From an uncultured Verrucomicrobiales bacterium (lineage in GTDB: Bacteria > Verrucomicrobiota > Verrucomicrobiia > Verrucomicrobiales > Akkermansiaceae), in contig CALBVY010000036.1 of the NCBI GenBank assembly GCA_937969495.1, positions 1 through 64,000 on the forward strand: DNA of 64,000 nucleotides. Reading direction: 5' to 3'. The stretch's first letter is position 1. The number at the start of each line of letters is the position of its first letter. Both the position numbers and the translations under genes were made by a program. Positions 46,079-47,146 of the stretch are shown here, piece by piece. Under the pieces are notes generated by a model that was not told the origin of the DNA, made no database searches, and was given only the letters and a program-made list of their open reading frames with translations.

Positions 46079-47146
46079 ATGATCAGAATGATTTGGAGTA
46101 TCACTTCTATGGCGCTGCTGATGGTATCCGTTAATGCACGCGGCCCAAGACCTACGGATATGGGGGCAAGTCCTCAGGAAATGGGGGGTTCTGGCGTAGT
46201 GTGGTACACCACTTGGGGTAGTGCGGTGGCTGAGGCAAAACGGAGCCAGAGGCCGATATTCTTTATGGCTGCAGCGGCGCAGTGTGGTGGTATTTCCGGT
46301 GTCTTCTGACCTGGTTATAACAAAACGCAGAACAGTTTGTTCTCAACAAAGGAATTTATAGCAGCCTCTCGTGCCTTTGTGTGTGTCCGTTTGGAGACAT
46401 TCGAAAGCAAGGAGCATCAAGATATGGTGCGTAAGCTGATGGGTGGAAAATTCGTGAATACAGCTTTTTGTATTTTTGCCCCAGATGGGAAAAAAAAGCT
46501 CACTAGGGTGGGGAGAAGTCCCGCGATGGGCTTTGGGGTTAGGCAGAGTGCTGATCCTGACCCAGAGGAGGTGAAAAAAGTGAACGCTCGTGTGATTGAT
46601 GCGATGTATGGTATCGCCAAGAAATATCCACCCCAGGCTAATCTGGCTGAGGCCGTGGTGGTTGATTTCCATAGTTTTGAGCAAGCGTTAAATGTTAGTT
46701 CTGGAGATCAGAGATTGTTAGTTTTTGCGGTCGCTACGGAACAACAGCATGCAACGCTCAAGAGAAAGATGCAGAAAGTCGCTAATCATCCTGATGTTAT
46801 CGGCCGCTACCACTTTGATTTTTCCTCCTCTACGGATGTTAGGTGGAGCGAAGTTGTTGATGGTGATCAGGCAAAAAGTGGAATTTTCATCATCCAGTCT
46901 GATGAGTTTGGTCAAAAAGGCAAAGTCCTCGCTGAGCTTTCACTTAATAGTGCTGCGGATTCTATCCGTGCAGTATTGGCAGTAGAGAATAAGAAATATG
47001 CAGCTTCTGAAACACGTAAACACTATGGTAAGCATGTGGCCAAAGGGCGCCGTACAGGAGTGAAGTATGAGGATGCTATGCCCTGGGGGGAAGACCGTGA
47101 TGGCGATGGGAAGATAGATCCGCGCCGTCAGAGGCGCCGGCGTTAA
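46079..47146 (+). CDS. Putative selenocysteine-containing thioredoxin-fold secreted protein (in-frame TGA)
   Basis: One frame of 355 codons from ATG 46079 to TAA 47146, interrupted only by a TGA at 46307-46309. Before it: signal peptide (~1-20), then [12 protein letters not shown], a thioredoxin-like first strand with Cys69. The TGA (residue 77) is followed in-frame by [26 protein letters not shown]-like text and [11 protein letters not shown], the rest of a thioredoxin-like domain, and a C-terminal DRDGDGKID calcium-binding-type loop. The stop splits one domain, so it is either selenocysteine or a nonsense mutation; a SECIS-like hairpin lies just downstream. Related '(seleno)protein' thioredoxin-like families are known from Planctomycetes and Verrucomicrobia (from memory). 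No sel genes lie in the window. Its stop overlaps the convergent ligA stop by four bases. Confidence 0.72.
46310..46352 (+). promoter_or_regulatory. Candidate bacterial SECIS hairpin
   Basis: Directly after the TGA, AGAACA (46329-46334) and TGTTCT (46338-46343) form a six-pair apical stem with loop GTT (or AGTTT if the closing pair opens). A lower stem CCT..GTT (46310-46316) with AAC..AGG (46345-46352) can add six more pairs. The loop G lies 25 bases after the TGA. Bacterial SECIS elements have such a stem with G in the first two loop positions at about 16-37 bases. The lower stem is irregular, so this is suggestive, not proof. Confidence 0.45.

Follow-up and report, generated by a model that had tools for sequence, protein, structure and literature searches.

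A conserved in-frame UGA and a SECIS-like hairpin in a thioredoxin-like gene of Verrucomicrobiota: a probable new selenoprotein family

The gene and its in-frame TGA

The window analysed here is a stretch of 64,000 nucleotides from an uncultured Verrucomicrobiales bacterium. Between a gene for a LysM protein (45377–45958, minus strand) and ligA (47143–49365, minus strand) it contains a single reading frame on the plus strand, which spans positions 46079–47146, encodes 355 residues, and ends with a TAA codon. The sole internal stop in this frame is a TGA at positions 46307–46309, corresponding to residue 77. The initial annotation had proposed a frame broken by this TGA only and preceded by a Shine-Dalgarno sequence, with a signal peptide at its start. 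This description proved correct for the frame, which is otherwise open, and for the AGGAGGG in front of it, and the N-terminus of the protein does resemble a signal peptide on reading. The features of the locus, all on the plus strand, are the following.

46079–47146, plus strand: probable selenoprotein gene, selenocysteine (Sec) at residue 77, stop codon TAA at 47144–47146; in homologues the parts before and behind the TGA are both complete
46061–46067, plus strand: Shine-Dalgarno-like AGGAGGG, read directly, with the ATG 11 bases downstream
46079–46138, plus strand: putative signal peptide, about residues 1–20, read from the sequence; in homologues it ends in ...AxA/AQ-G
46184–46630, plus strand: predicted N-terminal thioredoxin-like domain, residues 36–184 (AlphaFold2; PDB matches DsbH, AGR2 and DsbD-gamma)
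46283–46285, plus strand: Cys69, conserved without exception (77 of 77 homologues) and putatively the resolving thiol
46307–46309, plus strand: UGA probably read as Sec77, where helix 78–88 begins; TGA in 77 of 77 aligned homologues
46330–46342, plus strand: core hairpin of the putative SECIS element, stem GAAC (46330–46333) and GTTC (46339–46342), loop AGTTT (46334–46338)
46329/46343, plus strand: outer A-T pair of this hairpin, directly outside the core stem
46646–47011, plus strand: predicted second thioredoxin-like domain, free of cysteines, about residues 190–311, similar to the PDI b-domain (model; PDB matches)
47087–47119, plus strand: C-terminal acidic loop with DRDGDGKID, conserved in the UPGY subfamily and absent from the UPGK subfamily

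Six homologues with 43–69% identity were found in MAGs of the Verrucomicrobiales/Akkermansiaceae, and all six have the TGA at the same residue. A profile search through 387 genomes of the order detected the gene in 72, about a fifth, and each match extending over the site has a single TGA; the listed fragments lacking one do not reach this far, and two hits with an additional TAA had run past the gene end. In a direct reading of 75 loci from the first set, each showed the arrangement C-x7-UGA-P-G. Searching the whole class and a second order brought in 15 further genomes, again with one TGA each, so that the carriers amount to about 87 genomes from two orders of one class, their full-length homologues each having one in-frame TGA and an identity which reaches down to about 28%. 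The more divergent members form a subfamily with UPGK in place of UPGY and are 28–32% identical to the window protein.

In the alignment of 77 sequences the TGA at residue 77 is found in every one. Cys69, Pro78, Gly79, Trp42, Asn127 and Arg146 are likewise invariant, position 102 is a cysteine in 74, and the surroundings of Sec77 read S/P-G-V/T-F/W-U-P-G in nearly all family loci. Homologues with unrelated residues at position 77, which according to the initial annotation would have spoken against a selenoprotein, did not turn up: every full-length homologue has TGA at this site. Nor was a cysteine or other form of this position seen among the approximately 87 carriers, and only remote CxxC domains align to it; a homologue with cysteine in place of Sec is a usual filter for selenoproteins and not an essential one.

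In close pairs of homologues dN is far below dS before as well as after the TGA (for example 0.02/0.24 and 0.05/0.54 downstream and 0.0/0.45 upstream), which indicates purifying selection on both sides and hence that both halves are translated and conserved. This bears on the simplest alternative, in which the TGA is a true stop and the locus either a pseudogene or two genes. An in-frame start for a second gene does exist, the first one listed past the TGA being the TTG at 46337. It lies within the conserved domain, as had been noticed from the start, and beginning there would remove the well conserved active-site helix at about residues 77–86. In addition the same TGA occurs in some 87 genomes with no intact or cysteine version among them, and an assembly error would not recur in so many independent genomes. 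A true stop is thus very improbable, and so is a separate gene behind the TGA. Still more remote is a genome-wide use of UGA as a sense codon for tryptophan or glycine: apart from the open frame itself nothing points to it, TGA terminates five of the 26 long open reading frames (at least 300 amino acids) in the window, each gene has a single TGA always at the same residue, and the machinery for Sec is complete.

Selenocysteine machinery and the hairpin behind the UGA

In the genome of the window selA (contig C16, 501 bits, cut-off 268), selB (C53, 308 bits, cut-off 242), selD (C22, 377 bits, above its cut-off) and a tRNA-Sec with the anticodon TCA (UCA; C17:4244–4334, 57.6 bits, above its cut-off) were all found, so the machinery which the initial annotation had advised to look for is present. 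The selD gene (L025 1390–2601; C22:25238–26164) has an in-frame TGA of its own, in the motif CAGU, which is the known SelD selenoprotein form. Downstream of this TGA lies the perfect hairpin ACGCAG-GTT-CTGCGT, which served as a positive control within the same genome. Its loop GTT matches the A-GTT-T loop of the thioredoxin-like gene.

Across the order selA was detected in 69 of the 72 genomes carrying the gene as compared to 49 of the 315 non-carriers (Fisher p = 5e-40, a nominal value since the genomes are related). The three carriers without selA are drafts of 54–83% completeness. When ten further or doubtful carriers were examined for tRNA-Sec, six had one above the cut-off, and the other four were these three drafts and one genome of 92% completeness in about 430 contigs (G902). 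In the 49 non-carriers with selA the trait is presumably maintained by other selenoproteins, namely selD, VPGUxxT proteins and ones not identified.

The hairpin noticed initially, AGAACA-GTT-TGTTCT at 46329–46343, is separated from the TGA by 19 bases. It has a stem of 4–6 base pairs and the loop AGUUU, with a spacing of 24 nucleotides from the UGA to the loop. The published consensus for bacterial SECIS elements comprises an upper stem of 4–16 base pairs, an apical loop of 3–9 nucleotides with a G in its first two positions in the pattern G[G|U], a distance of 16–37 nucleotides from UGA to loop, and a minimum free energy of -7.5 kcal/mol or below (PMC13188914 Fig. 2A). The hairpin agrees with the rules for stem, loop, G[G|U] pattern and spacing. 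The 48-nucleotide segment of the window yields -5.9 kcal/mol (z 0.04), which is no better than shuffled sequences, and its minimum-energy fold is another one; in view of the limit of -7.5 kcal/mol, bSECISearch could miss it. In relatives the minimum free energy is -6.5 kcal/mol for L055 and -10.8 to -19 kcal/mol for four others, with a fold that is not always the same. None of the SECIS families of Rfam gave a match.

RNAalifold on its own predicted no structure from an alignment of 70 sequences. The pairing of the named structure was therefore counted directly, with shuffled and slid partners as controls. Across the 77 sequences the core stem is 97.7% paired. Double changes occur at all four core pairs (24 cells, at least two lineages), and core covariation is 0.299 as compared to 0.069 for shuffled sequences and at most 0.067 when the partners are slid by one to three columns. 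Few evolutionary events stand behind this covariation, namely those of the UPGK lineage, with L096 as one case (GAAC/GTTC to CAGG/CCTG), and those of a lineage of three loci, L069, L073 and L075 (GAAC/GTTC to GTAC/GTAC). As the minimum-energy fold differs in the latter, the covariation argument leans on the changes in the UPGK lineage. The G of the loop is invariant in all 77 sequences and followed by U in more than 90%, also in sequences with a different stem. The choice of synonymous codons is frozen at codons 83–88 (70 genomes, z 4.1–8.1 per codon), the codon of Ser86 showing a pairwise identity of 0.99 where 0.18 is expected, and the seven-codon windows with the strongest freeze in the whole gene all lie at the hairpin. 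The hairpin with a G in its loop which had been noted from the single sequence is thus confirmed by covariation and frozen synonymous codons, and the observation as a whole goes well past what chance would produce. The possible lower stem mentioned along with it did not hold up as a general feature, the next outward pair (columns 32/46) being formed in only 41 of the 77 sequences. In cross-species comparison, then, the hairpin behaves as would be expected of a SECIS element, and the evidence for it is of a comparative and not of a thermodynamic nature.

A conserved RNA element after the codon is also known from some cases of programmed readthrough, in which an ordinary amino acid would be inserted at the UGA independently of selenium. 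Against this explanation stand the strong co-occurrence of the gene with selA, the GU-loop hairpin at the spacing of a SECIS element, and the location of the site at the catalytic cysteine or Sec position of related domains; we regard it as very unlikely. With high probability the gene encodes a selenoprotein. SelB loaded with Sec-tRNA(Sec) would be recruited by the short GU-loop hairpin 24 nucleotides past the UGA at 46307–46309, leading to the insertion of selenocysteine at residue 77.

Predicted fold and putative active site

A search of the PDB with the protein sequence gave nothing meaningful, and the Pfam family Thioredoxin_7 (PF13899) scored 13.8 bits for the window protein at a gathering cut-off of 27. 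Weak matches to Thioredoxin_7 were obtained for all seven members of one sequence set (A1), the best with an E-value of 0.0014. The structure was predicted by AlphaFold2 with 41 homologues, which yielded a pLDDT of 93 and a pTM of 0.89 for the whole chain; the values for the N-terminal domain are 89 and 0.84. The model comprises two units of the thioredoxin type. In the first, Sec77 directly precedes helix 78–88; the second, with the succession H-E-H-E-H-E-E-H of secondary structure elements, has no cysteine. In comparison with PDB structures the whole chain resembles Trx1-Trx2 of QSOX1, the a-b domains of PDI, and ERp44, and the first domain resembles Thioredox_DsbH, DsbH, AGR2 and DsbD-gamma with TM scores up to 0.65. 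A thioredoxin fold in which the redox residue opens the active-site helix is thus indicated by the predicted structure and its comparison with the PDB, and together with the weak profile matches this supports the thioredoxin-like character that had been assigned from the sequence.

An active site of the CxxC or UxxC type is absent, the motif being UPGY or UPGK in 77 of the 77 sequences. Remote CxxC proteins align WCPPC with FUPGY, which places Sec77 on the first cysteine; matches of the Thioredox_DsbH type instead place Cys69 there. It is likely that Sec77 corresponds to the first, nucleophilic cysteine of CxxC, a detail which sequence alone does not settle. The position of the second cysteine is occupied by tyrosine or lysine, and Cys69, apart from Sec77 itself the one invariant residue of this kind, is located in a family-specific insert eight residues before Sec77. 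As both residues are invariant in the 77 sequences a redox pair, which the initial annotation had brought up, is plausible, and we lean slightly towards Cys69 as the partner of Sec77.

According to the mechanism we propose, the product would be exported, either secreted or periplasmic, and adopt a PDI-like a-b tandem thioredoxin fold. Sec77 would cap the active-site helix at the nucleophilic first-cysteine position, and the oxidised selenol would most likely be resolved by Cys69 as a selenenylsulphide. The most likely function is then that of an extracytoplasmic thiol-disulphide oxidoreductase or of a peroxide-reducing enzyme, and we consider an extracytoplasmic redox enzyme with thioredoxin fold the rather probable reading. 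A selenoprotein without redox function, in which the selenol serves to bind a ligand or metal, or which acts as a chaperone-like PDI with a single selenol in the way that ERp44 or AGR2 use one cysteine, is possible but distinctly less probable. Such a role is suggested by the lack of a CxxC motif and by the nearest folds, which include AGR2 and ERp44, proteins that carry a single active-site cysteine. It is disfavoured by the invariance of Cys69, which is near Sec77 in sequence as expected of a resolving thiol, and by the view that most thioredoxin-fold selenoproteins are redox proteins (PMC13188914). The acidic loop near the C-terminus of the UPGY subfamily is possibly the calcium-binding site of a secreted protein.

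No conserved neighbour gene was found in 20 carrier loci of about 9–14 kb each, two earlier loci and the window, so that genomic context gives no substrate and the selenoprotein gene appears to stand alone. Apparent neighbour families shared by 11–17 loci were rejected, since by position and count they are apparently antisense shadow reading frames of the same gene. Elsewhere in the window (43126–44352, plus strand) a 408-residue protein is encoded which looks exported and has no Pfam match above the cut-off; its C-terminal LGVVLDISGSM resembles by eye a von Willebrand A metal site.

Relation to known selenoprotein families

No model of NCBIfam release 20 or Pfam matched the protein at its cut-off, and neither a motif nor a domain match is present among the 119 prokaryotic selenoprotein families of a 2026 catalogue (PMC13188914 Table 1). 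Searches of the accessible literature on selenoproteins of Verrucomicrobia yielded nothing on this family, which is new relative to these sources. Against the two VPGUxxT models and Trx7/PDZ of NCBIfam release 20 it scores 12–18 bits at cut-offs of 275–350.

With the VPGUxxT proteins (NF041382 and NF041383) the family shares a Thioredoxin_7-like domain, and a profile-profile comparison by hhalign with such proteins from related genomes places their Sec on Sec77 with a probability of 91%. At cut-offs of 350 and 275 bits, however, the window protein scores 15.9 and the best divergent member scanned 17.4, and none of the motifs VPGU, UGGC and UAGC of these proteins occurs in the family. Unlike VPGUxxT it has the insert with the invariant Cys69 and a second thioredoxin-like domain as its C-terminal half; in addition VPGUxxT has cysteine forms (L111), whereas none was seen here. 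A bona fide VPGUxxT protein from a related genome (L113) reaches 318 bits and thus passes the cut-off of 275, from which it follows that NCBIfam does cover selenoproteins of Verrucomicrobia, though not this family. Close relatives of the window's genome contain VPGUxxT selenoproteins with in-frame TGA (L108, L110, L112 and L113), with cysteine instead in L111; in the window's genome itself a VPGUxxT selenoprotein was not detected.

The DsbH/Thioredox_DsbH, AGR2 and DsbD-gamma proteins, which carry CxxC or a single cysteine and no Sec, are extracytoplasmic and similar in the predicted N-terminal fold, with TM scores as given above and a sequence identity to this family of at most 20%. QSOX1 Trx1-Trx2 and PDI a-b have in common with it two consecutive thioredoxin folds with a redox residue in the first only; these eukaryotic proteins have a catalytic CxxC in contrast to U-P-G-Y, and the whole-chain TM score is only about 0.25. 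The Trx7/PDZ family (NF041199) also has a Thioredoxin_7-like N-terminal domain with Sec. It differs in having, judging by its name, a PDZ domain, and in its motif CxxU (PMC13188914), and four family members scanned against the model scored about 12 bits at a cut-off of 300. Filing the protein under VPGUxxT, Trx7/PDZ or Thioredoxin_7 was ruled out on score and motif.

With no cysteine form seen, Sec appears to be obligatory in this family. Whether it is an obligate-Sec family confined to Verrucomicrobiota, with a PDI-like tandem thioredoxin fold, a chemistry that depends on Sec in a pair with the cysteine eight residues upstream, and no cysteine version, seems to us about evenly balanced. According to its authors deep-Sep may miss families without cysteine homologues (PMC12013277), and the present family would fall into this blind spot. 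If the reading is correct, methods of discovery based on Sec/Cys pairs have missed an obligate-Sec family, and further families consisting of Sec forms only may have gone unnoticed for the same reason. Standard gene calling is likely to cut the gene short or in two. The unusual C-x7-U-P-G arrangement with its invariant Cys69 and Sec77 would allow a direct test of why one enzyme family needs selenium.

In one genome (G928) the UPGK form is present as a tandem pair (L141, 420–1493 and 1560–2615), both copies having a TGA that appears recoded and a hairpin with the loop AGTTT.
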